Positions 23,287 through 41,026 of a stretch of 64,000 bases of DNA are shown piece by piece. Below the pieces are notes generated by a model. It was not told where the DNA came from. It worked only from the letters and a program-made list of their open reading frames with translations, and did not search any database. Every line of letters begins with the position of its first letter. Within the stretch, counting starts at the first letter, position 1. The DNA comes from an uncultured Alphaproteobacteria bacterium (GTDB taxonomy: Bacteria > Pseudomonadota > Alphaproteobacteria > HIMB59): contig CACLUR010000001.1 of NCBI GenBank assembly GCA_902610175.1, positions 372,001 through 436,000 of the forward strand. The letters are read 5' to 3'. The position numbers and the translations under genes are program-made.

Positions 23287-23752
23287 TAAGGGATTTTGCA
23301 AACAAAATTGCGTCTTGCGTATTTGGAGCGTTTATAGACTTACTCCGATAATAGTTTTTTCTTTCATTGTAGGCTTTATAGCCTAATTTTTCATAAAGTT
23401 TAATAGCAAATTTATTAATAGCACTCGCTTCCAGAAAGATTTTAAATGATTTTCCAGTACTTTTGAGTTGTTTTTCAAGCTCTTCTAAAATCATTCTTCC
23501 CAACCCTTGGTTTCTAAATTCAGGCAAAACAGCAATATGTAAAATTTCAAATTCACTGACCTTTTGATCTTGATATAAAAAATGTCCTATCAAAGCACCT
23601 TTGACGTTAGTTTGATCTAGAAGATAAATATTAAAACTTGTTTCTTTATTGAGGTGAAGCTCAATATCTTTTTCACTCCAATTAATCTCTAGTTGGTCTT
23701 TATGATTGATAATCCAATTTTTAGAATCAGATAGAGTATGTGTAAAATTCAA
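23273..23752 (-). CDS. rimI: GNAT acetyltransferase, probably ribosomal-protein-alanine acetyltransferase RimI
   Basis: The 159 residues form a GNAT fold with the acetyl-CoA loop VLPEFRNQGLGRMILEELEKQL (about 94-113) and the C-terminal ASAINKFAIKLYEKLGYKAYNERKNYY typical of RimI. RimI acetylates the N-terminus of S18. In Alphaproteobacteria rimI usually lies between tsaB and miaB. Here it still precedes miaB, but tsaB is 24 kb away. The start is TTG, overlapping the agt stop as TTGA. Confidence 0.82.
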   Translation of the reverse strand: MNFTHTLSDSKNWIINHKDQLEINWSEKDIELHLNKETSFNIYLLDQTNVKGALIGHFLYQDQKVSEFEILHIAVLPEFRNQGLGRMILEELEKQLKSTGKSFKIFLEASAINKFAIKLYEKLGYKAYNERKNYYRSKSINAPNTQDAILFAKSLNAIK

Positions 23753-25569: not shown

Positions 25570-25587
25570 TTGTTAAAGTTTTATTAA
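25570..25587 (-). promoter_or_regulatory. Pho-box-like site upstream of plcP
   Basis: Read on the minus strand this contains TTAATAA, four bases, then TTAACAA, an 11-base period as in PhoB boxes. The core plus-strand 17-mer TGTTAAAGTTTTATTAA (25571-25587) recurs exactly upstream of pstS and of the ATP-grasp-like gene. It lies 44 bases upstream of the plcP ATG and directly abuts the ATG of the divergent SET gene. Confidence 0.65.
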
Positions 25588-26106
25588 ATGGACTCTTCAC
25601 AAAAGCTTTATATTAGAAAAAATTCTAAAATTCATGCATCTGGTCTTTTTGCAAAAGCTGATATCAGTGCTGGCACTAGAATCATTGAATATCGCGGGTT
25701 AAAGATAACTAAAGCTCAATCCGACAAGATTGCTGATGTTCACATAGAGGCAAACAAAAGGGCTAAAACAGTCGGGTCTGTTTACATTTTTACACTGAAT
25801 CAAAAATACGACATCAATGGAAAAGTAACATGGAATTTAGCAAAATATATTAATCATTCCTGCGACCCTAATTGTGAAACTGATATCATCAAAGGAAAAA
25901 TATGGATTAGCGCAATTAAAGATATTAAGAAAGGCGAGGAGCTGTCCTACGACTATGGATATGACATGTTTTGTTTCGAGGATCACCCGTGTCGATGTGG
26001 GTCTCAAAACTGTATTGGATATATTGTTCGAAGCAATCTTAGATGGAGAGTTAAAAAAAGGTTAATTGAAAATAAAAAGTCAAGATTTAACAAAAACTTC
26101 ACATAA
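25588..26106 (+). CDS. SET-domain protein (putative lysine methyltransferase)
   Basis: SET proteins transfer methyl groups from SAM to lysine side chains. The 172 residues show SGLFAKADISAGTRIIEY, the knot motifs YINHSCDPNC (87-96) and GEELSYDYGYD (116-126), and a post-SET zinc cluster of cysteines 135, 137 and 142 (CRCGSQNC). All key motifs are intact, so it is probably active. The substrate is unknown; bacterial SET proteins are not histone enzymes in this setting. It is divergent from plcP and 17 bases before dgkA, which places it in the lipid and phosphate island. Confidence 0.85.
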   Translation: MDSSQKLYIRKNSKIHASGLFAKADISAGTRIIEYRGLKITKAQSDKIADVHIEANKRAKTVGSVYIFTLNQKYDINGKVTWNLAKYINHSCDPNCETDIIKGKIWISAIKDIKKGEELSYDYGYDMFCFEDHPCRCGSQNCIGYIVRSNLRWRVKKRLIENKKSRFNKNFT

Positions 26107-26123
26107 GTAGTTAAACTTCAGAT

Positions 26124-26471
26124 ATGGATTTTAAAAATAAAAATATAGTAGATGCTTTTTGGTGTTCAATAGAAGGCCTAAAAATTCTCCTTCAAGAAAA
26201 AGCAGCAAGAAGAGAGCTATTATTGCTTCCCTTGTCTGCTCTATACATCGTAATTTTTCAACCGGCTCTTTTGTTCATACTTTGGCTGATAATTTTACCT
26301 TTGCTCATACTTAGTATTGAGGCTCTAAACACTGCAATAGAATATACCTGTGATAAAATTACTATGGATAAGTCAAACAAAATAAAGAAAGCTAAAGATT
26401 TGGGCTCTGCTGCAATTTTTTTATCTCTAACAGCCTATGGAATAGTTTTATTCTTAGGTTTATTTAATTAA
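26124..26471 (+). CDS. dgkA: Diacylglycerol kinase
   Basis: DgkA phosphorylates diacylglycerol to phosphatidate in the inner membrane. The 115 residues show the family signature E-x2-NTAIE-x3-D (E66-E73, IEALNTAIEYTCD), an N-terminal EGLKILLQEKAARRE helix and three membrane helices (about 33-50, 52-66 and 94-114). Close to plcP and agt it could salvage the diacylglycerol made by PlcP. It probably shares a transcript with the SET gene. Confidence 0.93.
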   Translation: MDFKNKNIVDAFWCSIEGLKILLQEKAARRELLLLPLSALYIVIFQPALLFILWLIILPLLILSIEALNTAIEYTCDKITMDKSNKIKKAKDLGSAAIFLSLTAYGIVLFLGLFN

Positions 26472-26474
26472 TTT

Positions 26475-26553
26475 GGGAAGATTGACATGATTTTTCTACA
26501 AGTAGAGGAGGTCTATGTTTCAATCACAGGGGAAATGCCAATCTTCCACCTAA
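26475..26553. ncRNA. Unclassified structured element between dgkA and arsC
   Basis: The 116-base gap between convergent dgkA and arsC holds a 9-base perfect helix (26476-26484 with 26539-26547, GGAAGATTG and CAATCTTCC). It encloses an ACAT/ATGT helix (26485-26488, 26515-26518) with a nested TCTA/TAGA hairpin, and a TTTC/GAAA helix, forming a three-way-junction-like shape. AGAGGAGG (26504-26511) lies unpaired. On the minus strand the same bases read CCTCCTCT, like anti-Shine-Dalgarno loops of some alphaproteobacterial small RNAs. Neither end has a U-run. I match it to no known riboswitch. Confidence 0.4.
26515..26553 (+). CDS. Possible 12-residue peptide within the structured element
   Basis: An ATG at 26515 with GAGGAGG upstream (3-6 base spacing) opens MFQSQGKCQSST, ending TAA at 26551-26553. 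The ribosome site is among the strongest in the window, while most genes here have none, which argues for some meaning. Codons run through the 3' strand of the closing helix. It could be a leader-type or free micropeptide, or coincidence. Confidence 0.3.
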   Translation: MFQSQGKCQSST

Positions 26554-26587
26554 TAAAATAATCATTTATATTAAATTAAAGTTAAAT

Positions 26588-27058
26588 TTAGATTAAATTT
26601 CCAATTTCTTTTATTTGATCGATATTTAATAAGTTGTTTTGCTTATAATTTTGAACTAGTGCAAGACATCTTTTTTTAAGAACATTGAATACTTTTAAAA
26701 ATTCTATCTCAACTTCCTCTTCAGTGCCTTTAAATTTTGCAGGATCAGCTACACCCCAATGTGCCTTTAATGTATTTTTGAGATACAGGGGGCAAGTTTC
26801 TCCAGCTGCATTATCACACACAGTAATAACCAAATCAAAATTAATATCTGAAAAATCATTCCATGATTGACTTTTCAAATTGTCTAGGAAAATTTTATTT
26901 TTTTCTAATGTTTTGATACTTAATGGATGCACATATCCTGCAGGGTGGCTTCCTGCACTATAAGCATTAAAAAAGTCTTTACCATAATGGTTTAAAAGCC
27001 CCTCTGTTATAATTGATCGACAAGAGTTACCTGTACAAAGTACAAGAATTTTAATCAT
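26588..27058 (-). CDS. arsC: Arsenate reductase (thioredoxin-coupled, low-molecular-weight phosphatase fold)
   Basis: This 156-residue protein has the P-loop CTGNSCR (C8-R14) of low-molecular-weight tyrosine phosphatases plus the redox pair C81 and C89 in TVCDNAAGETCP, and DPAKFKGTEEE. These mark the ArsC branch, which reduces arsenate to arsenite via a cysteine relay. About 20 extra residues follow the usual end. It starts one base after the phoB stop, so it is co-expressed with phosphate genes. That makes sense because arsenate enters through phosphate transporters. No arsenite efflux gene is adjacent. Confidence 0.88.
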   Translation of the reverse strand: MIKILVLCTGNSCRSIITEGLLNHYGKDFFNAYSAGSHPAGYVHPLSIKTLEKNKIFLDNLKSQSWNDFSDINFDLVITVCDNAAGETCPLYLKNTLKAHWGVADPAKFKGTEEEVEIEFLKVFNVLKKRCLALVQNYKQNNLLNIDQIKEIGNLI

Positions 27059-27059
27059 T

Positions 27060-27749
27060 TTAATTTTCTGAATCGATAGAGTAGCCAGCGGATCTAACTG
27101 TTCGAATGAAATCTTTTTCTCCTGTTAAATTCAGCTCTTTTCTGAGTCTTCTTATGTGAACATCAACTGTTCTAGGTTCAACGTAAGCGTCATTTAACCA
27201 AACATTATCCAATAGTTGCTGCCTAGAATAGACTCTACCTTTATTTTCAATAAAAAATTTTAAAAGATTAAATTCAGTCGGTCCTAAATTTAATTTTCTC
27301 TCACCCCTTGTTGCCCTTCTGTTGGTGAGATTAATGTTTATATCATGAAACTTGAGTGAGTCGTTCTCTTCTCTTGCTTTTGTTCTTTTAAGTAATGATT
27401 TAATTCTAGCAAGGATCTCACTTGGAAGAAAAGGTTTGGTTACATAATCCTCCACACCTAATTCAAAACCTCTAATTTTATCATCCTCTTGACCTTTAGC
27501 TGTTAACATTATAATTGGAATTTTTTTTAGATTATCTTTTCTTTTAATTCTCTTTAAAACTTCAATGCCCGATATATTTGGTATCATCCAATCTAATAAA
27601 ATTAAATCAGGCAGCCAATGTTCGATCTCTTGGATTGCAGATTCTCCGTCGTATGAAAATTTTATTTGGTAGTTTTGTTGTTCTAAATGAAATCCAATTA
27701 ATTCTGAGATTGGTTTTTCATCCTCTACAACTAAAATCTTGTCTGTCAT
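27060..27749 (-). CDS. phoB: Phosphate regulon response regulator PhoB
   Basis: PhoB is the OmpR-family activator of the phosphate regulon. The receiver domain (1-120) has the acidic pair at the start (VEDEKP), the phosphorylated Asp53 in LILLDWMIP, a Thr in MLTAKGQ and Lys in YVTKPF. The winged-helix domain (about 130-229) ends with RTVRSAGYSID, and R-T-V-D-V-H-I-R-R-L-R lies in its recognition region. It overlaps phoU by 4 bases. Its kinase phoR lies upstream of pstS rather than beside phoB. Confidence 0.95.
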   Translation of the reverse strand: MTDKILVVEDEKPISELIGFHLEQQNYQIKFSYDGESAIQEIEHWLPDLILLDWMIPNISGIEVLKRIKRKDNLKKIPIIMLTAKGQEDDKIRGFELGVEDYVTKPFLPSEILARIKSLLKRTKAREENDSLKFHDININLTNRRATRGERKLNLGPTEFNLLKFFIENKGRVYSRQQLLDNVWLNDAYVEPRTVDVHIRRLRKELNLTGEKDFIRTVRSAGYSIDSEN

Positions 27750-28429
27750 TCAAAATCAGATTTTTTTAAATCAATATAATGACCTGTAATGTTAAAAATG
27801 ACCTCTTCAGCTATGTTAGTAGCATGATCACCTATTCTTTCTAAGGACTTTGCAATTAAAATTGGCTTAGTGCCTTCATCAACAACACTTGTTTCTTTAT
27901 TGTGCATTCTTTCTATTAAATCAGATAATAAAGATTTGTACTGCCTGTCAATTTCTGCATCTTGATTCCATGAGATCCTTGCCTGTACCTCATCTTTTTT
28001 AAAAAAACTCTCAAGTGTTTGATTAACCATTTTTTGGACACCTTTACCTAAATTATGCATTTGGTCCGTTAAATCCTCGTCAAATGAAGAAGAAATTGAA
28101 ATAGCTCTTTTTGCTAAATTTCTAGAGTGATCTCCCATTCTCTCAAGCTCTTTTGAAACTTTGAGGGCAGTGAAAACTAGTCTTAAATCACTGGCAACGG
28201 GTCTATGTAAAGTCATAATTTCGAAACTTAAATCCCTAACATCTCTTTCCACTTCATCAACTTGTTCATCAAGATTCTGTGTTGTCTGTGCATCAGATGA
28301 GTCTTTAGATTTAATAACATTTACTGCAATTTCAATTTGTTTCTCAACAATATTACTCATTTTAATTAAATTATCTGTAAGATGATTTAACTTTTGTTCA
28401 AAGTTTTTATCTGTGTGTGCTGTTTCCAT
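27746..28429 (-). CDS. phoU: Phosphate-specific transport system accessory protein PhoU
   Basis: PhoU couples the Pst transporter to PhoR and represses signalling when phosphate is ample. It is an all-helical two-repeat protein with the repeated E-x3-D metal-cluster pattern (ELERMGDHSRN and SLERIGDHATNIAEE). I take the ATG at 28429, giving 227 residues; a TTG at 28438 would add three residues and overlap pstB. The gene lies between pstB and phoB. Confidence 0.94.
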   Translation of the reverse strand: METAHTDKNFEQKLNHLTDNLIKMSNIVEKQIEIAVNVIKSKDSSDAQTTQNLDEQVDEVERDVRDLSFEIMTLHRPVASDLRLVFTALKVSKELERMGDHSRNLAKRAISISSSFDEDLTDQMHNLGKGVQKMVNQTLESFFKKDEVQARISWNQDAEIDRQYKSLLSDLIERMHNKETSVVDEGTKPILIAKSLERIGDHATNIAEEVIFNITGHYIDLKKSDFE

Positions 28430-28430
28430 T

Positions 28431-29207
28431 TTAACCAAACCTTCCAGTTATGTAGTCATTTGTTTGTTCTTTATCAGGTTTTGTAAATATCTTACCAGTT
28501 TCTCCATATTCGACAAGGTTACCTAAATGAAAAAACGCAGTTTTAGATGATACTCGTGATGCTTGAGACATAGAATGAGTTACTATAATAATTGTGTAAT
28601 TTTCTTTCAATTCGTTAATTAAATCTTCTATTTTTGCGGTTGCTATTGGATCTAATGCAGAACAAGGTTCGTCCATCAAAATGATTTCCGGTCTTATAGC
28701 AATCGCTCTTGCAATGCACAATCTTTGCTGTTGTCCTCCTGATAAACCGGTAGCAATATCATCCATTCTATCTTTTACCTCTTCATAAAGACCCGCTCTG
28801 TGAAGTGAGTCTTTTACTATTTCATCTAATTCATTTTGAGAAGAAGCAATACCATGAATTTTTGGTCCATAGGCAACATTATCATAAATAGTTTTTGGAA
28901 AAGGATTGGGTTTTTGAAAAACCATTCCAACTTTTTCGCGAAGAGTTTCTACCTGTATATCAGGGCTATATATATCAACATTGCCATTCAACAAAAACTT
29001 ACCTTTAACATTACAAATATCTATTACATCATTCATACGGTTTAAACATCGCAAAAATGTCGACTTACCACAACCTGAGGGTCCTATAAGAGAAGTTACT
29101 TCATTTTTTGGAAAATTAAGAGCAACGTTATTGATTGCCATTTTTTTTCCATAGTGGACATATACCTCACTTGTTTGCAAAGCATAATTGCTGTTTTGAT
29201 CTACCAT
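28431..29207 (-). CDS. pstB: Phosphate ABC transporter ATP-binding protein PstB
   Basis: PstB powers phosphate import. The 258 residues carry Walker [10 protein letters not shown], the Q-loop VFQKPNPFP, the ABC signature [16 protein letters not shown], Walker [13 protein letters not shown] and the switch His in [10 protein letters not shown]. The family-specific [13 protein letters not shown] segment is present. It overlaps pstA by 7 bases and ends just before phoU. Confidence 0.97.
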
Positions 29208-30451
29208 TTCACCTCCAATTTTCTTCTTACCAACACTGCCACAGTATTCATTATAATCAAAAAAGATAAAAGTAGCATTATTCCTGCAGATGTTTTTTCG
29301 AGGAAACCTCTTTCAGCGCTCTCAGACCATAGATATATTTGTGAAGGAAGACCAGTGGCAGGGTCGAATGCCCCTCCCGGTATTTCCATCACAAAAGCAA
29401 CCATACCTACCAATAATAAAGGGGCTGTCTCACCCAAAGCTTGTGCCATTCCAATAATTGTTCCAGTAAGAGTACCTGGCAAAGATAAAGGGATTACATG
29501 ATGAAATACAGTTTGCATTTTAGTAGCCCCCACAGCAAGTGCTCCCTCTCTAATTGAAGGGGGGACGCCTCTGAGCGATGCCCTAGATGCTATAATAATT
29601 GTTGGTAAAGTCATAAAACCTAAAACTAATCCTCCAACTAAAGGGACTTGATATGGCATCCCAAAAACTCCAATTAGCATACCTAAGCCTAAAAGTCCGT
29701 AAACAATAGAGGGAACCGCCGCAAGGTTATTTATATTTACTTCAATAATGTCAGTTATTTTTCCTGGTTTAACAAATTCCTCTAAGTACACAGAAGCCAA
29801 AAGTCCGATTGGAAAAGCAAAACTAAAACAGATCAATAAAGCATAAAAAGACCCCATAAGTGCTCCAAGTATTCCGGCTGTTTCTGGATCTCTTGAGTCT
29901 CCATTTGTGAAAAACCAAAAATTGAATGTCTTAGACATTTTACCTTTGGAGTCTAAAGAGTCTAAGATAGAAAGTTGATAATCATTTATTTTTCGTTGTG
30001 CTTCGGGAACATTTCTTGGATAGTTTCCTTTGACAATTTGGTCAAGATCTGATGAGGCAGATATATCTAAATTGACAGTTTTTCCAATTACATTTGGATT
30101 GTTTGCAATATAATCTCTCAGCTGATAATCAAATTTTCTTGTGTACATTTCTCTGACTTTAATAAAATTTTCTTCATCTAATCCAGGATGGTTTTGGTTA
30201 ATCACTTGATCAGCAAGATCAACATAAGATGCTTTCATTATTTCTTTTTTGGAGGAGTTACTAGAAACCTCTATAAAATTTGGGTCAAAATAAACATCAG
30301 CATTAATAGTTGTTCTAACAAAAGCACCACTGCCGGTAGAAAAAATTTTATACATTAAAATAAGCACGAAGAACAAAGAGAGAGTCATCGCAAACATTCC
30401 ATAAAATTTGAAACGTTTCTCTGCTGCAAGTCTCTTTTCTAAACTACTCAT
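29201..30451 (-). CDS. pstA: Phosphate ABC transporter permease PstA
   Basis: PstA is one of two membrane subunits of the phosphate importer. The 416 residues are longer than the E. coli protein (296) because of a periplasmic insert of about 130 residues after the first helix (about 20-42). The permease core has the EAA-type loop [30 protein letters not shown] (near 306-335). Long PstA forms are common in Alphaproteobacteria. It overlaps pstC by 8 bases and pstB by 7 bases. Confidence 0.94.
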
Positions 30452-31880
30452 ATTTTTCTCTGTACTTTTTTACTATTGTTATAGCAGCAATATTAAGAAT
30501 TAATGTCATTACAAATAAAGTTAGGCCTAAAGCAAAAGCAACTAAGGTTTTTGGATTATCAAACTCGACATCTCCTATCAAACTTGTAACAATCTGTGTT
30601 GTTATTGTAGTCGCTGGCTCCAAGGGATTAAAAGTAAGATTTGCTCTTAGGCTGGCGGCCATAACGACAATCATTGTCTCACCTATTGCCCTAGATATAG
30701 CTAATAAAAATGAGCCCATTATTCCAGCTAGAGCTGCTGGTAAAATTACTTTTTTAATAGTTTCTGATTTAGTTGCTCCAATTGCATAAGAACCCTCTCT
30801 TAAAGATTGAGGAACTGCTTTTATGACATCGTCACTAAGAGAGGAAACAAAAGGTATGATCATAACACCCATCGCTAAACCTGCAGCTAGAGCACTTTCA
30901 GCGGACACCGGTAATCCAACGCCTTCACCGACATCTTTTATGAAAGGTGCCAGTGATAAAGCAGCAAAAAATCCATAAACAACTGTGGGTATGCCAGCAA
31001 GAATTTCAATTATTGGTTTAGCTATATCTCTTACTTTTGATGACGCATACTCTGCTAAATAAATTGCTGTTAGCAGTCCTAAAGGAACAGCGACTAACAT
31101 GGCAACAGATGCAATTAAAAGCGTTCCGGTAAGCAAAGGTACAAAACCAAAAGCCTCTTTTAAAGCCTCTTGATCGAAGCCTTCTGATGCATTGATAACA
31201 AAAGCTCTATTGGGATTCCATGCCGTATTAAAGAAAAAGTCCATAAAATTTACGTACCGAAAAAAATTAATGGCCTCGAAGACAAGAGAAAAGAAGATTC
31301 CAAAAGTAATGAATATTGCAATATAAGAACTGCCCTTGATAACATATGAAATTATTTTCTCAACAATTGGCTGTGCATTTAGTTTTCCTGATATTGATTT
31401 CGTAGCCAAAAATCCTAAAAGCACAGGTAGAATAATAAATAGAGTTAAATTCGACCATCCGTAGATCTTGTCAAAATTTGCTAAATTTTTTGCTGCAATT
31501 ATCTCACTCTCACTGGCCATTTTTAAAATTGATTTATCGCCTACGGTCAAATCAATTTCTGATAAATTAACAATCATAGATAGGTTGCTAATCTTATTCA
31601 TAATTAAACCGAATTTTCCAGAGCTCCATGTAGCGACATCTGGAAATAACACAGGGGACATTACAAACATCTCTTGAAAGTTTGATTTAAAAATAAGTAA
31701 AAAGAACCAAATAATTATTGCTGGAAAAAAAACTAAAAGGACAACGTAATATCCATAATAATCTGGAAGAGAGGAAAGATTTTCATTTTTTTTAAATTTT
31801 AGGCTTAATGCTCTTTTTTTACCATAGAAGTAAAAAGAGTAAGAAAGTATAAAAACAAAAACAAGTGATAAATAAAGCAT
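30444..31880 (-). CDS. pstC: Phosphate ABC transporter permease PstC
   Basis: PstC pairs with PstA to form the phosphate channel. The 478 residues have extra N-terminal helices and a soluble insert (about residues 75-145) before the permease core, which carries the EAA loop REGSYAIGATKSETIKKVILPAALAG (near 360-385). Its separation from pstS by an 80-base gap with a 12-base-pair hairpin suggests pstS is expressed more strongly than the membrane parts. Confidence 0.94.
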   Translation of the reverse strand: MLYLSLVFVFILSYSFYFYGKKRALSLKFKKNENLSSLPDYYGYYVVLLVFFPAIIIWFFLLIFKSNFQEMFVMSPVLFPDVATWSSGKFGLIMNKISNLSMIVNLSEIDLTVGDKSILKMASESEIIAAKNLANFDKIYGWSNLTLFIILPVLLGFLATKSISGKLNAQPIVEKIISYVIKGSSYIAIFITFGIFFSLVFEAINFFRYVNFMDFFFNTAWNPNRAFVINASEGFDQEALKEAFGFVPLLTGTLLIASVAMLVAVPLGLLTAIYLAEYASSKVRDIAKPIIEILAGIPTVVYGFFAALSLAPFIKDVGEGVGLPVSAESALAAGLAMGVMIIPFVSSLSDDVIKAVPQSLREGSYAIGATKSETIKKVILPAALAGIMGSFLLAISRAIGETMIVVMAASLRANLTFNPLEPATTITTQIVTSLIGDVEFDNPKTLVAFALGLTLFVMTLILNIAAITIVKKYREKYE

Positions 31881-31912
31881 ACTGTCCTATTCCTCTATAA
31901 ACTGATTTTGTC

Positions 31913-31938
31913 TTAGGGGCAAGAAATCTTGCCCCTAA
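31913..31938 (-). promoter_or_regulatory. Intercistronic stem-loop between pstS and pstC
   Basis: A perfect 12-base inverted repeat (TTAGGGGCAAGA and TCTTGCCCCTAA) with a 2-base centre follows the pstS stop. On the minus strand no U-run follows, so it is more likely an mRNA-stabilising or partial-termination hairpin that raises PstS over PstC, a common layout for binding-protein operons. Confidence 0.7.
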
Positions 31939-31960
31939 AAATAAGATAATTAATTAATGC

Positions 31961-33037
31961 TTACTTACAAAGTCCGCTTGAAAAAGCGTAACCAGCATCT
32001 TTTAATGGATGTTTTTTTTCAGCACATGCTGCAATATCAAATCCCATTGCATCTAAGCTGTCAGTAACGTTTCTTACTCTATTGATAAGGTCTGGTACCA
32101 TAGGTGCAGCACCAATTTTTGTTAGGTAACCGTTATCACCAATTGCTTCATCACTTACCATCATTTGTGCAAACTCCTGAATGCCAGGTACAACCCCGAT
32201 GTGATCTGCTTTTAAGTATATGAAAAGAGGTCTTGCCATTGGATACTCATAAGTTGCAATGGATTCAGCAGATGGTACTACTCCCTCAACAGTAGATGGT
32301 TGTAATTTATCTCCGTTGTCTTTTAGATAAGAATAACCAAAGTAACCAAAACGTTCTGGATCCTCAACTAGTTTTTGAACAATAAGAGTGTCATTCTCAC
32401 CCATCTCGATGATTTTTCCATCTTCTCTGTAATCAGTACATCCATCGTCACTGCCAGTTACTGCTTCTAATGTACATCCAGCCTCCATTACTTTACCATC
32501 AAATGCATCTCTTGTTCCTGAGGTTGGAGGAGCTACTAATACTTCAATTTTATATGCTGGAAGGCTTGGGTTAATTTCGTTCCAAGTTTGATATGGATTT
32601 TCGACCACTTCACCATCAACAACAACTTTTGCAGCCATAGCTGTAAAGATTTCTTCTCTTGTTAGAGAAAAAGGTTCTGCTTCGTTGGAGTGAGAAAAAG
32701 TAATACCGTCATTAGCCCACATCACTTCAATTACGTTTGTTACACCGGCTTCAAGACATAATTTAGCTTCTTTAGCTTTCATTGGTCGTGACGCTCCAGT
32801 AATATCTGGAAATTCAACTCCCACACCAGCACAAAATGCTTTCATTCCACCACCAGTTCCAATTGGATTGTAAGTGGGGGTTTTAAAACCTGACTCGCCG
32901 AGTCTTTGTGCGTTTACTGTTCCATATGGGTATACTGTTGATGAGCCAACAATATTAATTTGATCTCTTGCAAAAGTTTCAGCAGAGAAAAGTACGCTTA
33001 CTGCTAGAGCAAGAAAAGTTAACATAGATTTTTTCAT
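31961..33037 (-). CDS. pstS: Phosphate ABC transporter substrate-binding protein PstS
   Basis: PstS captures phosphate in the periplasm. The signal peptide spans about residues 1-23 (MKKSMLTFLALAVSVLFSAETFA). The mature part starts RDQINIVGSSTVYPY, with the phosphate-binding Gly-Ser-Ser-Thr turn, and includes GTGGGMKAFC, DITGASRPM and PTSGTRDAF, which supply further ligands. Six cysteines could form disulfides. AAAGGA lies before the ATG, and a three-unit Pho-box-like site lies 60-88 bases upstream, overlapping the phoR stop. Confidence 0.95.
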   Translation of the reverse strand: MKKSMLTFLALAVSVLFSAETFARDQINIVGSSTVYPYGTVNAQRLGESGFKTPTYNPIGTGGGMKAFCAGVGVEFPDITGASRPMKAKEAKLCLEAGVTNVIEVMWANDGITFSHSNEAEPFSLTREEIFTAMAAKVVVDGEVVENPYQTWNEINPSLPAYKIEVLVAPPTSGTRDAFDGKVMEAGCTLEAVTGSDDGCTDYREDGKIIEMGENDTLIVQKLVEDPERFGYFGYSYLKDNGDKLQPSTVEGVVPSAESIATYEYPMARPLFIYLKADHIGVVPGIQEFAQMMVSDEAIGDNGYLTKIGAAPMVPDLINRVRNVTDSLDAMGFDIAACAEKKHPLKDAGYAFSSGLCK

Positions 33038-33096
33038 AGTTAAGTTCCTTTATGTTGTTTAAATTGAGCTAAAAATATCCATTAGAAGTAAATCTT

Positions 33097-33125
33097 ATGT
33101 TACAAATATGTTAAAGTTTTATTAA
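33097..33125 (-). promoter_or_regulatory. Three-unit Pho-box-like site upstream of pstS
   Basis: On the minus strand three 7-base units, TTAATAA, TTAACAT and GTAACAT, are each separated by four A/T-rich bases, an 11-base period matching PhoB binding geometry. It contains the 17-mer shared with the plcP and ATP-grasp sites (33109-33125). The phoR stop codon is inside it. Confidence 0.75.
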
Positions 33126-34387
33126 GCATGCTTTGGAATTGTGATTAAAAACTCTGAGCCTTTTCCAACTTCACTTTTTATGTCAATAAAACCCATGTTT
33201 TTATTCAAAATATGTTTCACAATTGAAAGGCCTAATCCAGTACCACCAACCTCTTTGGATCGAGCACTGTCCACTCTGTAAAATCTCTCGGTAAGCCTTG
33301 AGATGTGCTCTTCTGCAATGCCTATGCCATTATCCTTAAAGGAAATTTCGACATATTCAGTCATATTGCTAGTATTCATTTTTTCACGAGCTTTAATTAA
33401 AATTTTAGCACCATCTTTTGAATATTTAACAGCGTTGTTAACGATATTGACAACCACTTGAATAAATTCTTCATGAGGACATCCAACTAAAAGAGATTGG
33501 TCTAAATTAATATCAACATTTATTTTTTTCTTTAAAATTTTTGACTCCAATGAGTTTATTCCAATTTTAACGGTATTTAATAAATTACAAAATTGGTCAT
33601 TCTCATTAGTTTTTTTATTCTCGATGGAACTTAAACTTAATAGATCATCAATCAAAGAGTTCATTCGATTTGACTGATCTTGAATAATTGAAATAAATTT
33701 TTTTTTATTTTTTTCATCGTCAACAGTTAAAAGTGTTTCTAAATATCCTATTATTGAAGAGAGTGGAGTTTTTAATTCGTGACTTACATTAGCTACGAAG
33801 TCAGTTCTTACCATCTCAAGATTTTTAATTGCAGATATGTCTTTAAAAGCAACGCAAAAAAAATCGTTAATTGGAAATCCTGTAACGTCGTAATATCGGT
33901 CATTTGGTATTAATCTGTTCCACTCAAAATTTTTTTTTGATTTAGTTTTAAGTGCGTTACTTAGATTTTCAGACAAAGATAAGTCTCTTAAACCTATTTT
34001 AAGGTTATCTGCATTTTCTAAATTAAATGTCTCTTTGAAAATATTATTAACGAATATAATATTATAATCGTAATCTATAATAACTATTGAGAGGTCTAAG
34101 GAGTTAAGAATGTCTTGATACTCCAAACTTTGTTTGTCACCAACTTCGATGCGTCTTTCTTTGTCTAAAAGAGTCTCTTCTAAAATATTTCGGACTTTTG
34201 TAAATAACATATTGTCAGATTTTCTTAGGTCAAAAGTTTTTTTTTCAAGATAGCTCTCAAAGAAATAATAAGAAATGAAATAAACTAAACTCTGAGAAAT
34301 AATTGATATTAAAAAAATATTAATTGAAGTACTAAAAAACAAAAATAAGTTTAATGAGAGAACAGCAATAGAAAATACAAATAACAT
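33122..34387 (-). CDS. phoR: Phosphate regulon sensor histidine kinase PhoR
   Basis: PhoR phosphorylates PhoB under phosphate limitation. Two N-terminal membrane helices (about 1-20 and 23-43) are followed by a PAS domain (about 90-185), the HisKA box with His203 in FVANVSHELKTPLSS, the N-box VVNIVNNAVKYS, the G1 box DNGIGI and the G2 box GGTGLGLSIVKH. Length 421 is typical. It lies downstream of sixA and ppk with 1-base spacing, so it appears to sit in a polyphosphate operon rather than with phoB. Its stop overlaps the pstS Pho-box-like site. Confidence 0.93.
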   Translation of the reverse strand: MLFVFSIAVLSLNLFLFFSTSINIFLISIISQSLVYFISYYFFESYLEKKTFDLRKSDNMLFTKVRNILEETLLDKERRIEVGDKQSLEYQDILNSLDLSIVIIDYDYNIIFVNNIFKETFNLENADNLKIGLRDLSLSENLSNALKTKSKKNFEWNRLIPNDRYYDVTGFPINDFFCVAFKDISAIKNLEMVRTDFVANVSHELKTPLSSIIGYLETLLTVDDEKNKKKFISIIQDQSNRMNSLIDDLLSLSSIENKKTNENDQFCNLLNTVKIGINSLESKILKKKINVDINLDQSLLVGCPHEEFIQVVVNIVNNAVKYSKDGAKILIKAREKMNTSNMTEYVEISFKDNGIGIAEEHISRLTERFYRVDSARSKEVGGTGLGLSIVKHILNKNMGFIDIKSEVGKGSEFLITIPKHA

Positions 34388-34388
34388 T

Positions 34389-36473
34389 TTATTGTTTTTC
34401 TATTTTTTTATAGACCTTTTTGGCAGCAGTGCCTCTCCCTGAGAGACTAGGGTTGGTCATAAAATATTTATGTGAGTCTATTTTTAGTTTAGAGTTTATT
34501 TTTTGATAATTTCCATCTGAGTCGAGTATCCAAGTATTTTGATTATCGTTAATGGCAGTGTACATAATTTGATATAAAATTTGTTCGTGAACAGTTTTGT
34601 TATCGATAGGAACTAATGTTTCCACGCGCCTGTCAAAATTTCTAGTCATCCAGTCAGCAGATGAAATATAAATTTTTGCTTTTTTACTGGGTAGTTTATT
34701 GCCTTTTCCGAAACAAACTACACGTGAATGCTCTAAAAATCTTCCTACAATACTTTTAACTTCTATGTTTTCTGACATTCCTTTAACACCAGGAACTAAG
34801 CAGCAGATACCTCTAATTAAACAAGTAATTTTCACTCCTGCTTTAGATGCTTCGTAAAGTTTGTTAATTATTTCTTGATCAACTAAATTATTCATCTTGA
34901 TCCATATGTTAGCTGGCTTTTTAATTTTTGATAAACCTATTTCGTAGTCAATATGTTCGTATAGTTTTTGTCTTAAGTTATATGGAGAGAAAGATATTCG
35001 TTTAAAATCTTTTGCCATGTTGTAACTACTCATATAATGAAATAATTTTATAGCATCAGATGCTAGATCTTTATTACAAGTAAAAAATGATAGATCTGTA
35101 TAAACCTTTGCTGTTTGAGGATGATAGTTACCAGTACCATAGTGAACGTAATGGACTAAATTTTTTTTTTCTCTTCTAGTAACTAAGGAAACTTTTGCAT
35201 GAATTTTTAGATTTAAAAAACCATACACTACTTGAACTCCAGCTTTTTCCAAATTTGATGCCCACTGTAGATTTTTTTCTTCATCAAACCTTGCTTTTAA
35301 CTCAACAACTGCTGTTACAGATTTACCAGCATCAGCAGCACGAATGAGTGCATCAATGATTGGCGATTGATCGCTAGTACGATACAAAGTTTGCTTAATT
35401 GCCACAACGTTTTTGTCGTTTGATGCTTGATCTAAAAAACTAACAACAACATTAAAAGACTCAAAAGGGTGGTGTACAACTAAATCCTTTTTTTTGATTG
35501 CTGCAAAACAATCACCGCCAAAATCATTTATTCGCTGTGGGAAACGAGGTTTAAATTTTTTATAATTTAAATTCTTGTTTTTTATATTTCCAAAGACTTC
35601 TGATAATTGGTCGAACCCCAGTAGATCTTCGTATTCAAAAATTTCATTTTCAGATACATTCAACTCGTTAATGATGAATGATTTAAAATTATTATTAAGA
35701 CTTTTTTGAACATCTAATCTGATTACCTGTCCTCTTTTTCTTTCCCTGACAAGTTTTTTAAACTCTCTGATAAGATCGTCTGCCTCCTCCAAAACCTCTA
35801 AATCACTGTCCCTTATTACGCGAAATAGATTTGTATCAATAACATCAAAATCATGGAATACATCCCCAACATAATTGTTAATTATTGACTCTACGGGATA
35901 AAAATAAATACCCTGTTTATCAATAATTTTAAGAAAGCGTTGTTTTAAATCTGATACTCTCATAACTGAGATAAATTCTTTTTTTGATTTTTTATTTTTA
36001 ATTTTAGCGATAAGACACAAACTTAAATTTGGTATAAAGGGCAAAGGGTGTGTGCTATCAACTGTAATTGGTGTCAGAATCGAAATAATTTCATTCAAAT
36101 AATAATTTTTTATGTGGGACAAATGTTTTTTTAAAAACTTATCTCTTAAAATATAGATTTTATTTTTTTTTAATTCTTTTTCAATTTGACCATACGATTC
36201 ATTTTGCCTTTTAATCAAACCTCTTGTTAATGAGTCAACAATTTTAATTTGATCCTCAATCTTCATTCCATCAAAACTTTTTTTATTAGGAGTGAGTTTT
36301 AACTGTTCAATTAATCCAGCCACTCTTACTGAAAAAAATTCATCTAAGTTTGATGCAGCAATACTTATAAAATTTAGTCGTTCTAAAATTGGGACGTTTT
36401 TATCATAGGATAATTCATTTACTCTCTCATTAAATTTTAGCCAGGATATTTCTCTATTAAAATACTTATTCAT
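34389..36473 (-). CDS. ppk: Polyphosphate kinase 1
   Basis: Ppk1 polymerises the gamma phosphate of ATP into polyphosphate. The 694 residues show the N-terminal FNRELSWL-like start (YFNREISWLKFNERV), the phosphorylated histidine region HYVHYGTGNYHPQTAKVYTD and the second catalytic block FLEHSRVVCFG in the phospholipase D-like C-terminal half. It lies between sixA and phoR on the minus strand, overlapping sixA by 8 bases, and is near divergent ppx, so polyphosphate synthesis and breakdown genes are side by side. Confidence 0.95.
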   Translation of the reverse strand: MNKYFNREISWLKFNERVNELSYDKNVPILERLNFISIAASNLDEFFSVRVAGLIEQLKLTPNKKSFDGMKIEDQIKIVDSLTRGLIKRQNESYGQIEKELKKNKIYILRDKFLKKHLSHIKNYYLNEIISILTPITVDSTHPLPFIPNLSLCLIAKIKNKKSKKEFISVMRVSDLKQRFLKIIDKQGIYFYPVESIINNYVGDVFHDFDVIDTNLFRVIRDSDLEVLEEADDLIREFKKLVRERKRGQVIRLDVQKSLNNNFKSFIINELNVSENEIFEYEDLLGFDQLSEVFGNIKNKNLNYKKFKPRFPQRINDFGGDCFAAIKKKDLVVHHPFESFNVVVSFLDQASNDKNVVAIKQTLYRTSDQSPIIDALIRAADAGKSVTAVVELKARFDEEKNLQWASNLEKAGVQVVYGFLNLKIHAKVSLVTRREKKNLVHYVHYGTGNYHPQTAKVYTDLSFFTCNKDLASDAIKLFHYMSSYNMAKDFKRISFSPYNLRQKLYEHIDYEIGLSKIKKPANIWIKMNNLVDQEIINKLYEASKAGVKITCLIRGICCLVPGVKGMSENIEVKSIVGRFLEHSRVVCFGKGNKLPSKKAKIYISSADWMTRNFDRRVETLVPIDNKTVHEQILYQIMYTAINDNQNTWILDSDGNYQKINSKLKIDSHKYFMTNPSLSGRGTAAKKVYKKIEKQ

Positions 36474-36975
36474 TCTTGTAATTATAACTTTTAAGTCTTT
36501 TTACTAATTGTAGTTCTTTAATTTCACCAGTATTTTTTTTTATCTCACTCCAGGAATTAATATATAGATTAATCTCGCAAAATGCACATGTTGGAAATTT
36601 TATTATTTTATCTTTTGCAATATAGTTAATTAAATCAATAAAAGCTGGATTATGACCTACTATCATTAAATTTTTGTTAATTTTAATTTTTTTTATCCAT
36701 TTAATTAAATCGTTAAAGTTGAAAGTATATAGTTCACTTTCAAAATTAACTTTAATTGAGTCTTTAAATATTTTTTTGCAAGTCTCTTGTGTTCTTTTTG
36801 AATTCGATGAAAAAATTGAGATATCTTTAAAATTTAGTTTTTTAAAAATATGCGTTGCCATTACTTTGCAACTAAAAATCCCCCTCTCAGATAATGGTCT
36901 TTCATGATCGTCTAATTCTAAATTTTTCCAAGAGGATTTAGCGTGACGTAATAAAAATAGTTTTTTTTCAATCAT
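36466..36975 (-). CDS. SixA-type phosphohistidine phosphatase
   Basis: This small histidine-phosphatase protein has 169 residues. The RHG-like motif LLRHAKSSW (His11) is followed by HERPLSERG, and MIVGHNPAFIDLINYI supplies the second histidine. SixA enzymes dephosphorylate phosphohistidine in phosphorelay proteins. Overlap with ppk, whose intermediate is also a phosphohistidine, is suggestive but unproven. Only 11 bases separate it from the divergent ppx frame, so promoters must lie inside neighbouring coding sequence. Confidence 0.85.
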   Translation of the reverse strand: MIEKKLFLLRHAKSSWKNLELDDHERPLSERGIFSCKVMATHIFKKLNFKDISIFSSNSKRTQETCKKIFKDSIKVNFESELYTFNFNDLIKWIKKIKINKNLMIVGHNPAFIDLINYIAKDKIIKFPTCAFCEINLYINSWSEIKKNTGEIKELQLVKRLKSYNYKNE

Positions 36976-36986
36976 CTGTTAAATAT

Positions 36987-38447
36987 ATGCAATATAATAT
37001 GCTTAATAAAAAAGATTCTATTGCAGTAATAGATATAGGGTCAAATTCAGTAAGATTGTGTGTATTTAGGGGCAATATGAGAAGCCCTGATGTGCTCTAT
37101 AATAAAAAATTTTTTTGTGGGTTAGGTGAATACCTTCCAAAAACAAAATTGATCAGCAAAGAGGCTGAAAAAAAATGTATCAACTCAATAATTTTTTTTA
37201 ACTCAATAATTGAAGAAATAAAACCTAACCACTCTGTCGCTTTGTGTACTGCAGCAATTCGAAATGCTTCTAACAAAAAACAAATTACAAATAAGATACA
37301 AAAAGTTTTTAAGGGAAAAGTTTTAACTTTATCTGGAAGACAAGAGGCCTCCTATGCCACACTAGGCGTTCGTTCTGCAATACCTAGGGCCAATGGGACC
37401 ATTATTGATATGGGAGGTGGCAGTCTTGAATTAGCACAAATAACACCACATAAAATTAAAAATATATCTTCTTTTCCTTTGGGTATATTAAACTTCACTA
37501 AAGAACATAAAGAGCATAAAAAAATTAACAAAGAAATAAATTCAAAACATAAAAATCAAAAAATCTTCTATTTAATTGGTGGAGCATTTAGGACAATTGC
37601 AAGATGTTATATTTATTTTAATAAATTGCCCTTTAATGAAATACACAACTTGAGTATCTCTCGGAAAAATTTTTATGAATTAAAATCAGAATTACAAAAA
37701 ATTGGGATTGACGACCTACAAAAAATTCCGAAAATTTCTGTCGACAGAATAAAACATATTCATATTGCAATAGAAGTATTGGACAAGGTGTTAAAATTAT
37801 CAAACTGCGAGCAGTTTATTTATCCAAGATACGGGATTAGAGAGGGTTTCATTTACGAAAATCTTCCCAAAAAGCAAAGGCTTTTAGATCCAACTGAAAT
37901 TTCTTTAGAATTAATAGCTAAAAGTAGATGTCGTTTTTTAATATTTAATAAAAAGACTTTTGCTTGGATTAAAAATGTTTATTTAAAATTTATAAATTTA
38001 AAAATGTCCCCTAACCAACTGAGAGTAATAAAACTCTCATGCATTATTTCAGATTTGGGATGGGAGCAAACAGCCAAAATTAGAGCTTCTTATGCATTCA
38101 ACCTAATATTAAATAGTCCTCTAGTAGGAATAGAACAATCAGAAAAAGTATTTATTGCATATTTAGTGTATTTAAGGCACACGAAAAATATCTTAGACCA
38201 AAGGGTTATTGAAAAAGAATTAAGTACCTATTTATCTTATTTATCAAGTGACGAAAAAAAGTTAGCTTATCAGATTGGGTGTGTATTAAATTTTTTATAC
38301 TCTATAACTAAGGGTTCTTCTTTTTTATTAAAACAGCTTGATCTTAAATCTTTAACATTGGCAGAGCAAAAAAAGGTTTCGTCTATTCAAAAAGTACCAA
38401 AATCAGGCAAAACTGAACAGCTTTATAACCTAATTAGAAAATTTTAA
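36987..38447 (+). CDS. ppx: Exopolyphosphatase (Ppx/GppA family)
   Basis: Ppx releases phosphate from polyphosphate ends; GppA relatives hydrolyse pppGpp. The actin-like N-terminal domain has the phosphate loop AVIDIGSNSVRL (about 13-24) and the second loop IIDMGGGSLEL (about 138-148). At 486 residues it has a C-terminal helical region but a reduced HD-type domain. An ATG at 36999 four codons in is an equally good start. Divergent from sixA-ppk, it completes polyphosphate turnover. Confidence 0.9.
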   Translation: MQYNMLNKKDSIAVIDIGSNSVRLCVFRGNMRSPDVLYNKKFFCGLGEYLPKTKLISKEAEKKCINSIIFFNSIIEEIKPNHSVALCTAAIRNASNKKQITNKIQKVFKGKVLTLSGRQEASYATLGVRSAIPRANGTIIDMGGGSLELAQITPHKIKNISSFPLGILNFTKEHKEHKKINKEINSKHKNQKIFYLIGGAFRTIARCYIYFNKLPFNEIHNLSISRKNFYELKSELQKIGIDDLQKIPKISVDRIKHIHIAIEVLDKVLKLSNCEQFIYPRYGIREGFIYENLPKKQRLLDPTEISLELIAKSRCRFLIFNKKTFAWIKNVYLKFINLKMSPNQLRVIKLSCIISDLGWEQTAKIRASYAFNLILNSPLVGIEQSEKVFIAYLVYLRHTKNILDQRVIEKELSTYLSYLSSDEKKLAYQIGCVLNFLYSITKGSSFLLKQLDLKSLTLAEQKKVSSIQKVPKSGKTEQLYNLIRKF

Positions 38448-38500
38448 TATTAGATTAATATTTTTTTAATTAAAATTACATAATCAATAAATCTAATATT
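38446..38500. repeat. Perfect 11-base inverted repeat downstream of ppx
   Basis: AATATTAGATT (38446-38456) and AATCTAATATT (38490-38500) flank a 33-base A/T-rich spacer in the gap before the choice-of-anchor gene. The left arm overlaps the ppx stop. It could be a weak terminator or an operator. The spacer also holds TTAATAT and TTAATTA with an 11-base period, only faintly Pho-box-like. Confidence 0.4.
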
Positions 38501-38523
38501 CTTTGGTATTTGGAGAATAAATA

Positions 38524-40083
38524 ATGAAATTATTATTATCAATGCTTTTAAGCTTTGTTTTTTTCAATGTAAATGCATTGGAACTTAATAAAATCTCAGG
38601 CTATTCAACTTTTTCATGGGACGAAGGTGGATCAGAAATTTTAGCTTACGACTCTCAAAGAAACAGAATATTTGTAACAAACAATCTAACAAAATCTATA
38701 GATGTTTTAGATATTACAAGATTACCATATACAGAAAAATTAATTTCAATAAAACCAAGAGCAGGTGTTGGTGGAATAAACAGTGTTGCTGTTTCAGAAC
38801 AAGCAGGTTTGCTTGCTTTAGCAATCGAGGCAGAAGACAAACAAGACAATGGTGCTGTTTTGTTCTATAATCTTAATACATTAAAATTGGCTTTTGGGTA
38901 CTCAGTAGGTGCGCTGCCTGATAATGTTGTATTTACTCCGGATGGGAAATATGCATTGGTCGCCAATGAGGGTGAGCCAAATGATGACTACACTGTTGAT
39001 CCCAAAGGATCTGTTTCAATTATTGATTTAAACAAATGGTTTGTTGGCCCTAGTGAAGATAAAATCAGAAATATAAACTTTTATTACAATGGGGCTCCAG
39101 AGGGTGGCAGAATTGTAAAACCTGGATCATCTTTTTTGTATGATGCTGAACCAGAGTTTATAGCAGTTAGCGGTGACTCTAAAAGAGCTTATGTAGCTCT
39201 TCAAGAAAATAACGTTATTGCAAAGATAGATATTAGTTTGGGCATAGTTACTGATTACTTTGGTTTAGGCTATAAAGATTGGTCTCAGTCCGCTCTTGAT
39301 GCTTCGAATAAGGATAACAGAGTTAATATACAGCCTTGGCCGGTTAAAGGAATGTATCAACCAGACACCATGGTAGTTGTCAGTAAAGAGATTAATGGTG
39401 AAATGTATGATTATGTTTTAATGGCTAATGAGGGAGATGCAAAAGATTACGATGGATTCTCAGAAGAGGTAAGGGTCGCTGATTTAACTTTAGACCCTTC
39501 AGTCTTTCCTAATGCCTCAGAGCTACAAAAAAAATCAAATCTCGGTAGGTTAAAAACAACTACTACTATGGGAGATGCTGATGGTGACGGTTTTTATGAA
39601 GAAATCTATACCTACGGCGGAAGATCTTTTTCAATTTTAGACGGTAATACCGGACAAATTATTTATGATAGCGGTAATGATATTGCTGTTAGAACAGCGT
39701 TTTCAGGTTTTTTTAACTGGAATGAGGATGCGGGATCTTTTGATGACAGAAGTGACGATAAAGGTGCAGAGCCAGAGGCTCTTACAGTTGGAGAAATTGA
39801 TGGAAGAACAATAGCTTTTGTAGGTCTTGAAAGACAGGGCGGTATCATGATGTACGATATTACTGGTATGGTAAAACCAAAATTTCTTGGATATTTTAAT
39901 GGTAGAAACTTTTTTGGAGATGGTACAAAACAAACTGGTGGTGACATATCTCCTGAATCATTAGTTTTTATACCTGCCGACAAGACACCTCCACTTTATC
40001 ATGTCAGAAAAGGAACTCCTTTATTGATTGGAGCCTATGAACTTTCGGGTTCAACTGCTATTTACGAAGTTATAATTGATTAG
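38524..40083 (+). CDS. Choice-of-anchor I family secreted beta-propeller protein
   Basis: A signal peptide (MKLLLSMLLSFVFFNVNA, cleavage near 18) precedes a propeller-like repeat protein of 519 residues. Family blocks include GGINSVAVSEQAGLLALAIE, GALPDNVVFTPDGKYALVANEGEPNDD, EPEFIAVSGDSKRAYVALQENN and DADGDGFYEEIYTYGGRSFSI, the last like a calcium loop. Homologues are often labelled alkaline phosphatase, but I see no classical phosphatase catalytic motif and do not claim that activity. GGAG lies 8 bases before the ATG. Its place after ppx suggests, but does not show, a role in phosphate stress. Confidence 0.75.
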   Translation: MKLLLSMLLSFVFFNVNALELNKISGYSTFSWDEGGSEILAYDSQRNRIFVTNNLTKSIDVLDITRLPYTEKLISIKPRAGVGGINSVAVSEQAGLLALAIEAEDKQDNGAVLFYNLNTLKLAFGYSVGALPDNVVFTPDGKYALVANEGEPNDDYTVDPKGSVSIIDLNKWFVGPSEDKIRNINFYYNGAPEGGRIVKPGSSFLYDAEPEFIAVSGDSKRAYVALQENNVIAKIDISLGIVTDYFGLGYKDWSQSALDASNKDNRVNIQPWPVKGMYQPDTMVVVSKEINGEMYDYVLMANEGDAKDYDGFSEEVRVADLTLDPSVFPNASELQKKSNLGRLKTTTTMGDADGDGFYEEIYTYGGRSFSILDGNTGQIIYDSGNDIAVRTAFSGFFNWNEDAGSFDDRSDDKGAEPEALTVGEIDGRTIAFVGLERQGGIMMYDITGMVKPKFLGYFNGRNFFGDGTKQTGGDISPESLVFIPADKTPPLYHVRKGTPLLIGAYELSGSTAIYEVIID

Positions 40084-40096
40084 TAATATTTATTTT

Positions 40097-40122
40097 ACCC
40101 TCTCTAAATTAATAGGGAGGGT
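40097..40122. terminator. Hairpin between convergent genes
   Basis: ACCCTCTCTA (40097-40106) and TAGGGAGGGT (40113-40122) form a 10-pair stem with one G-U pair and loop AATTAA. It lies between two convergent genes and touches the stop of the minus-strand gene. No long U-run follows, so Rho-independent strength is moderate at best. Confidence 0.55.
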
Positions 40123-40976
40123 TAGATTAAATAGCTTTTTCTAAACTTGTCATTAATAAGTGCAATAGCTTTTTTTCCATCCTCAAGTGAAATCTTATCT
40201 GGCGGACCCCAAGCAGTTTTATTGACATCAACAATATAAATTTTTTTCGTATCCCTATCTCTTAAAATGTCTAACTCCCCAAAATCTAGTTTAAATTTTT
40301 TACAAAATTCATTTATTAAACTAATCTCTTCATTTTCAAATAAAGAACAAATTGAGACTATTTTTGAATAAACAGTTTTAGATTTAAAGCGATATTCTTT
40401 TTGAGCAAATTTCACGTAAGCTAATACAATTTCATCTTTAACCCATACGACCCTATAATCGATAGCAAATTCGTTATAAATATTATTAATTAATTTTTGG
40501 TAAACCTTATTTTTATAAATTTTAAATCCTAACGAAGAACTATTTATAATCTTCCCGTCATGTTTTGCATTTTGCTCTGATTTTTCTAAAATTGAACCAT
40601 GAAAGTTTTTTGGATCTAAGCTCAGAGAATAACCAAAAATCTCTAAGAAAACTTTATCAACATTAGATTTACTGATGTCAGTGCAATTTTTATTTATTAC
40701 TATTTTTTTTGGATTTCCAGAGACTTGGTAGTTACTATTAGTTTTGTCATAAAAATATAATTCTATGTCAGCTAGTTCTGGGGAGGACGTAAACCTAACT
40801 GGCAAGCCCCATCTAACTTTAGCTAAAGTATAAAGTGGATTCAAAGGCCTTCTAGGGTAACAGATTATTTTTTTTTTATTTGATGAGGTAGATTCATATA
40901 AGCTAATCAAAAAATAAACATCTCTCAGCCCTCGAAGAATAGTACTAATTACGTCTGAAACAGTTATTGATGACAT
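40122..40976 (-). CDS. ATP-grasp-like protein of unknown function
   Basis: I do not recognise a named family. The 284 residues (from ATG 40976; a TTG at 41009 would add 11) end with a metal-binding pattern like ATP-grasp ligases: GELDILRD (E234) and YIVDVNKTAWGPP (D250, N252). An N-terminal part with GLRDVYFLISLYE and a basic centre rich in Lys and Tyr precede it. ATP-grasp enzymes join carboxylates to amines or phosphates. A Pho-box-like site lies 33-50 bases upstream, so phosphate-stress expression is predicted. It converges on the choice-of-anchor gene and is divergent from glnD. Confidence 0.65.
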   Translation of the reverse strand: MSSITVSDVISTILRGLRDVYFLISLYESTSSNKKKIICYPRRPLNPLYTLAKVRWGLPVRFTSSPELADIELYFYDKTNSNYQVSGNPKKIVINKNCTDISKSNVDKVFLEIFGYSLSLDPKNFHGSILEKSEQNAKHDGKIINSSSLGFKIYKNKVYQKLINNIYNEFAIDYRVVWVKDEIVLAYVKFAQKEYRFKSKTVYSKIVSICSLFENEEISLINEFCKKFKLDFGELDILRDRDTKKIYIVDVNKTAWGPPDKISLEDGKKAIALINDKFRKSYLI

Positions 40977-41008
40977 AAATTGATTCTTTAGACCATTACA
41001 TATATACA

Positions 41009-41026
41009 ATGTTAAAGTTTTATTAA
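41009..41026 (-). promoter_or_regulatory. Pho-box-like site upstream of the ATP-grasp-like gene
   Basis: On the minus strand TTAATAA and TTAACAT are separated by AACT, identical to the first two units at pstS. The 17-mer TGTTAAAGTTTTATTAA occupies 41010-41026. It lies 33 bases upstream of the minus-strand ATG, and its last base is the A of the divergent glnD ATG. Confidence 0.65.

Follow-up and report, generated by a model that had tools for sequence, protein, structure and literature searches.

Three copies of a 17-base sequence as the probable core of PhoB operators in the phosphate island of an uncultured HIMB59 alphaproteobacterium

The Pho box of Escherichia coli, at which PhoB binds, has the form CTGTCAT-A(A/T)A(T/A)-CTGT(C/A)A(C/T) (PMC3465305), and the E. 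coli sites compiled in that chromatin-immunoprecipitation (ChIP) study include A/T-rich variants that are plcP- and phoE-like. Here we analyze a 17-base sequence, TTAATAAAACTTTAACA (minus strand), which occurs exactly at 25571-25587, 33109-33125 and 41010-41026 of a 64-kb stretch of DNA from an uncultured, small-genome marine alphaproteobacterium of the HIMB59 lineage (contig CACLUR010000001.1, positions 372,001 to 436,000; the whole of that stretch is hereafter the window), at the promoters of three minus-strand genes: a plcP-like metallophosphoesterase gene, pstS and an ATP-grasp-like gene. With a probability of roughly 0.92, we take this 17-mer to be a core common to three PhoB operators, all of them within the flexible phosphate island of a HIMB59/AEGEAN-169 alphaproteobacterium. 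A preliminary description of this DNA had proposed a PhoB box at these promoters, which reading is supported by a matrix of E. coli sites, by phylogenetic footprinting in relatives, by a PhoB ortholog with its recognition helix, and by the absence of the box where either phoBR or the target gene is lacking.

The island has been described for the HIMB59 order as fGIp (PMC10734472), and the window shares with it the pst operon, phoBR, ppk, ppx and the genes for a SixA-like protein, a diacylglycerol kinase, a SET protein, a glycosyltransferase, a phosphoesterase and an alkaline-phosphatase-type product. The fGIp occurs in versions with and without phoBR (PMC10734472), that of the window appearing to be E-like. 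The main text of that article contains none of the terms "pho box", "motif", "plcP", "ATP-grasp" or "glnD"; it names the phosphoesterase LpxH and calls some genes hypothetical. Judged by position, our plcP-like gene is probably that LpxH, and the ATP-grasp-like gene may be taken as one of those hypothetical proteins. Putative Pho boxes at the plcP clusters of marine bacteria have already been reported (PMC4796936), which clusters resemble the present one in joining PlcP to a neighboring glycosyltransferase and an upstream PhoB site; the passages of that article on these clusters mention neither HIMB59 nor an ATP-grasp-like gene. In the open-licence literature we found no paper treating HIMB59 together with a Pho box.

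The three sites and their match to known PhoB sites

In the standard Pho-box register the core reads NNTTAAT-AAAA-CTTTAAC, that is, with at least two direct 7-base units at a 4-base spacing. The plcP box, ATTTAAT-AAAA-CTTTAAC (25572..25589, minus strand), extends into the ATG of a divergent SET-domain gene, taking in its first two bases, and at the ATP-grasp-like gene the box CATTAAT-AAAA-CTTTAAC (41011..41028, minus strand) covers the start codon of the divergent glnD. At pstS, where TTGTAAC and GATTTAC are added, the sequence, the E. coli matrix and the footprinting in relatives delimit four units, GCTTAAT-AAAA-CTTTAAC-ATAT-TTGTAAC-ATAA-GATTTAC (33088..33127, minus strand), the first of which overlaps the phoR stop codon; the third unit is degenerate at the plcP-like and ATP-grasp-like genes. 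The motif lies 44 bases from the ATG of plcP, 71 from that of pstS and 33 from that of the ATP-grasp-like gene, so that of the 33-60 bases previously given the lower bound stands and the upper becomes 71. A possible -10 element of pstS, TCTAAT (33081..33086, minus strand), recognized by eye 12 bases after unit 3, is weak and not kept in all the relatives.

The three exact copies of the preliminary description were all confirmed, as was its estimate of a chance well below 0.01 per 64 kb: we calculated an expectation of 0.0003-0.0004 exact copies per 64 kb and of 0.007-0.009 (about 0.008) per genome. The 17-mer is the only one with at least three copies in the window, while none of 30 order-3 Markov simulations of the window contained such a 17-mer, and the sequences flanking the three copies are mutually unrelated. 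No fourth exact copy exists in the organism's own assembly (1,385,057 bases, 16 contigs). With up to two mismatches allowed, that genome has 10 matches (3 without, 1 with one and 6 with two mismatches), and a reversed control pattern also gave 10; therefore, only the exact class is above chance. In 52 genomes of the genus the matches with at most two mismatches were likewise not clearly above the control, among the matches listed.

From the 43 distinct 18-mers in Table 2 of the E. coli PhoB ChIP study (PMC3465305) we built a matrix, which contains no sequences from the present genomes, and scored it at all 127,966 positions of the window. The pstS box ranked 1st, the plcP box 3rd and the box of the ATP-grasp-like gene 16th, all on the minus strand and in the standard register deduced for them; by this matrix, the unit sequence of the three sites falls within the range bound by the characterized PhoB of E. 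coli. Since that PhoB itself has been found at the A/T-rich sites CATTAATATATCTGTGAC, ATTTATTAAATCTGTAAT and GATTAATAAAACTGTAAT (PMC3465305, Table 2), the earlier term "lineage-specific" Pho box was only partly right. The 7-base units every 11 bases, the A/T-rich spacer, the tandem array at pstS and the in-frame match to the matrix are as in E. coli; in the unit itself G has become T and C has become A (CTTTAAC), for which reason the box looks much more A/T-rich. The PhoB of the window scores 307.3 bits with TIGR02154 (cut-off 296.2) and possesses the receiver and winged-helix domains, and its recognition-helix stretch, VEPRTVDVHIRRLRKEL, differs from that of E. coli, VEDRTVDVHIRRLRKAL, at 2 of 17 positions.

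The PhoP box of Bacillus consists of TTAACA-like repeats every 11 bases. Its A/T-rich letters and its period are like those of the present sites, but the resemblance depends on a frame two bases off; the pstS units of the preliminary description, whose 11-base period holds, were likewise set in a frame two bases off the standard register. We rejected the Bacillus-type frame because the footprinting in relatives and the E. coli matrix put the site in the proteobacterial register, and on the same two grounds we set aside the notion of a new class of box. We regard the element as one more example of an established switch, a standard Pho box with worn letters.

The boxes in relatives and where regulator or target gene is absent

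Close relatives of the PstS protein come from uncultured alphaproteobacterial single-cell genomes and metagenome-assembled genomes (MAGs), and the relatives' pstS boxes form, in one frame, a gradient from CTTTAAC to TTGTCAT or CTGTCAT: ACGTAAC-AAAA-CTTTAAC (L031), TTGTCAT-AAAA-CTTTAAC (L040), CTGTCAT-AAAA-CTTTAAC (L073), TTGTAAT-ATTT-TTGCAAC-ATAT-TTGTAAC (L041) and GTGTCAT-ATTG-CTGTCAT (L045, a Glaciecola MAG). With a matrix of five sites from the window's clade, the best hit upstream of pstS was in all five B-type islands on the same strand as the gene, 79-80 bases ahead of the match start, and all seven scored loci of a second family were matched on the gene strand, the score being reached by 0-6 of 100 shuffles. 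A second pstS in the genome G014, which was outside the training set, is preceded by TTGTAAT-AAAA-CTGTAAT-ATTT-CTGTAAT; this divergent gene (L252, G014:C53) comes after one resembling, by eye, a Pit phosphate transporter. Of the 39 genus genomes in which PstS was matched, 15 have a 100% identical protein although each represents a different species, an identity that is consistent with the published exchange of the island.

The core of the plcP box is identical at 17 of 17 bases in three distant members (L039; L040/L158; the HIMB59-like G029/L159), in contrast to the aligned plcP leader down to the ATG, of which less than half of the columns are kept. Between the ATP-grasp-like gene and glnD the box was found in all 15 fetched loci having that gene (14 exact; L039 with 15 of 17 bases), whereas none of the six D-type loci that have glnD and lack the ATP-grasp-like gene carries a box before glnD; the box therefore serves the ATP-grasp-like gene.

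As to the regulator, the pstS box is absent in the three readable phoBR-less islands (3/3; G011, G020 and G072), in whose genomes, 66-81% complete, no PhoB ortholog was found. A phoB-like stub that retains the opening codons of a response regulator, KILVVEDD followed by stops, stands after phoU in G011, G020 and G033 (L152, position 8762, plus strand; L153; L157, position 5141, plus strand), the pstS of G033 starting at a contig end; in these genomes phoB has therefore decayed, and the simple, phoBR-less version of the island looks derived by loss. The search with the stub pattern found nothing in G072. Of 54 pstS loci followed by 6.5 kb or more of sequence, 43 have phoB above our threshold of 200 bits, the other 11 being four outgroup loci (173-179 bits), two gammaproteobacterial loci (none), G009 and four phoB-less islands. 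The box is present in all five B-type islands, in four of which phoB was seen.

The box sits upstream of phosphate-stress genes and is conserved there, at pstS, at plcP and across the genus. A box model applied to the 52 genus genomes gave 82 matches of at least 20 bits, of which 35 precede pstS, 23 lie on the plcP side and 15 on the side of the ATP-grasp-like gene. Nine were not placed by coordinates; of six among these, one lies at plcP, three at the ATP-grasp-like gene and one at ugpB, and one has no gene assigned to it. By places rather than matches, 35 of 40 pstS places carry the box, and the other five are the three phoBR-less islands and the contig-start genes of G033 and G070. In the organism's own genome the top three matches are the three sites, at 31.7, 24.3 and 23.4 bits.

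The "defined regulon" of the preliminary description holds for the three promoters inside the island, and no convincing member was found outside it in the own-genome and genus scans, which could miss weak sites. The match that comes next after the three sites in this organism (18.3 bits, E 0.004) precedes a UgpB-like gene (255.5 bits; UgpB cut-off 411), and one copy of that element, in G007, reaches 21.6 bits. A fourth target at ugpB was not accepted: the element is kept in G011, G020 and G072, which have no PhoB ortholog, and degraded in the HIMB59-like G029, which has PhoB. A second leader, before a solute-binding-protein gene, gave repeated matches of about 17 bits and was rejected as well, the whole leader being conserved, also in the phoB-less G072. 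Both cases show that a model E-value of about 0.005 cannot be trusted here. The ugp genes form a ugpB-A-E-C-like operon outside the island (L205, 2058-7010, G000:C2), the UgpC subfamily model being above its cut-off and UgpB and UgpA below, and in many members of the genus the leader contains, with the conserved element, the DnaA-box-like TTATACACA; for this family, PMC10734472 states in its text that no other phosphorus genes lie outside the island. Within the island, the E. coli matrix gives rank 168, or 1033 after composition correction, to a degenerate site before a choice-of-anchor-I gene (38453-38481), and relatives L039 and L044 have at that place the palindrome GTAATTAAAATTAC.

Objections and rival explanations

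Several observations weigh against the reading of the sites as PhoB operators. With a background corrected for A+T composition the three sites fall to ranks 2, 24 and 43 under the E. coli matrix, first place going to another position, so that the matrix signal is strong but not unique; the pstS of the HIMB59-like G029 scores just 7.3 with the five-site matrix, a value reached by 10 of 100 shuffles; and no comparable box was seen upstream of plcP in the second family. The box model was partly trained on sequences that it recovers, and many of the genus genomes are near-identical. The loss of phoR removes half a pstS box mechanically, because unit 1 and the phoR stop codon share bases, and the absence of the box in phoBR-less islands is therefore in part mechanical; moreover, these cases may represent few events. 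The genome G009 (55% complete) has the box and a phoR tail and no phoB was found in it, its contig breaking inside pstC; at that place (L154, G009:C4) the truncated pstC is joined to an NfuA-like gene that sits elsewhere in the window, which join is either a chimaeric assembly or a rearrangement. Finally, the best matches of the kinase encoded next to pstS are the PhoR and PnpS models, yet they remain below the curated cut-offs.

Another regulator of the OmpR family might bind the core at the plcP-like and ATP-grasp-like genes, with PhoB acting only at the longer pstS array; regulators of that family do bind similar tandem repeats, weaker PhoB homologs exist in the genome, and the degenerate third unit at those two genes would suit this division. 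The 17 identical bases in one frame at all three sites, the match of the plcP and ATP-grasp sites as well to the E. coli PhoB matrix, and the location of all three in an island carrying phoB make this explanation quite improbable. Even less credit is due to the proposal that the motif is under constraint because it serves the divergent SET and glnD genes as a basal or bidirectional promoter, and not as a minus-strand operator: although it lies against or over both of their start codons, the six loci where glnD lacks the ATP-grasp-like gene (6/6) have no box, a consensus scan of two intergenic stretches gave no sigma-70-like promoter above shuffles, and at the pstS site there is no divergent start. 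That the identity arose by chance, or as a short dispersed repeat, we regard as scarcely tenable, in spite of a window with about 69% A+T and of matches with up to two mismatches at the control level, since 0.008 exact copies are expected per genome, the flanks are unrelated, and the frame is conserved in relatives and agrees with the E. coli matrix.

The genes under the boxes and the meaning of the switch

The operator reading, to which we return, concerns three predicted transcription units. The pst run comprises pstS (31961..33037; PF12849, with the PstS family model TIGR02136 below cut-off), pstC (30444-31880), pstA (29201-30451), pstB (28431-29207) and phoU (27746-28438), all on the minus strand; the last four have among them the Pfam permease, DUF3333, ABC and PhoU domains, and their order and names are those of PMC10734472. 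The phoB gene (27060..27749, minus strand; TIGR02154) is the last but one of the run, so that activation through the pstS box would also increase the regulator itself. The phoR-like histidine kinase (33122..34387, minus strand) has HisKA and HATPase_c domains. The plcP-like gene (24738..25526, minus strand; PF00149) encodes a protein on which LpxH models score far below their cut-offs (53.7 against 134 and 43.5 against 190.35), and it shows what is expected of a putative PlcP: the metallophosphoesterase fold, a glycosyltransferase neighbor and predicted Pho control. The neighbor, a GT4 glycosyltransferase gene (23749..24741, minus strand; PF13692, PF00534, PF13439), overlaps plcP, and the divergent SET-domain gene (PF00856) occupies 25588..26106 on the plus strand. 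Both plcP and the glycosyltransferase gene lie directly upstream of overlapping GNAT acetyltransferase, radical-SAM/TRAM (miaB-like) and PhoH-family genes (21016-25526, minus strand), for which reason the plcP box might also drive these core genes. Also near the sites are genes for a diacylglycerol kinase, a low-molecular-weight (LMW) phosphatase, a polyphosphate kinase, a histidine-phosphatase-family protein, Ppx and the choice-of-anchor-I protein.

The ATP-grasp-like gene (40122..40976, minus strand) is divergent from glnD (41026..43578, plus strand; TIGR01693 555.9 bits, cut-off 519.4). Its product has no match in Pfam or NCBIfam, and in a class-wide sample it was matched at E <=0.001 in 13 of 385 genomes: its own, one of the same genus, nine relatives at 32-38% identity and two weak ones. 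Ten aligned members have an ATP-grasp-like pattern in common, and their profile matches RimK-type ligases in the PDB (E 7.8e-5, positions 185-266), the RimK Pfam model appearing weakly in 3 of the 10 (best E 0.0033). Structure prediction gave a failed fold model (pLDDT 35), and the search of phage records with this protein returned no match. In six of the nine distant relatives (L208-L212, L215) a metallo-beta-lactamase-fold gene, called by Pfam in two and by eye in the others, comes after the ATP-grasp-like gene, frequently behind a PLP-dependent enzyme. Together with the choice-of-anchor-I gene, the ATP-grasp-like gene forms one block between ppx and glnD (38460-41019); this block is absent in the D-type L031-L033 and L035-L037, where glnD comes directly after ppx.

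From these data we infer the binding, the phosphate response, the extents of the operons, the promoter geometry and the enzyme functions as follows. Under low phosphate PhoR would phosphorylate PhoB, whose dimers would bind head to tail on 7-base units recurring with an 11-base period. Each of the plcP and ATP-grasp-like promoters would offer one dimer site and pstS as many as two, with the boxes standing in for the -35 element. Uptake would thereby be switched on through pstSCAB-phoU-phoB, with self-amplification, as would phospholipid replacement through plcP and the GT4 glycosyltransferase, and the ATP-grasp-like gene. As the boxes cover the glnD start codon and touch that of the SET gene, PhoB binding would in addition repress both divergent genes, which would place the nitrogen sensing of E-type cells, and not that of D-type cells, under phosphate control by the insertion of one gene; we hold this extension to be unlikely.

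At the level of sequence evidence, an abundant marine clade would thus carry a phosphate island with its own PhoB regulon, the switch and its targets being joined in one transferable cassette. The plcP-like gene is supported here as a phosphate-stress gene, and the uncharacterized ATP-grasp-like gene becomes tied to phosphate stress, which connection provides a condition under which it can be tested. The Pho box, for its part, appears to have drifted toward A/T-rich letters with scarcely any change in the recognition helix, and to be absent at pstS where phoB decayed.

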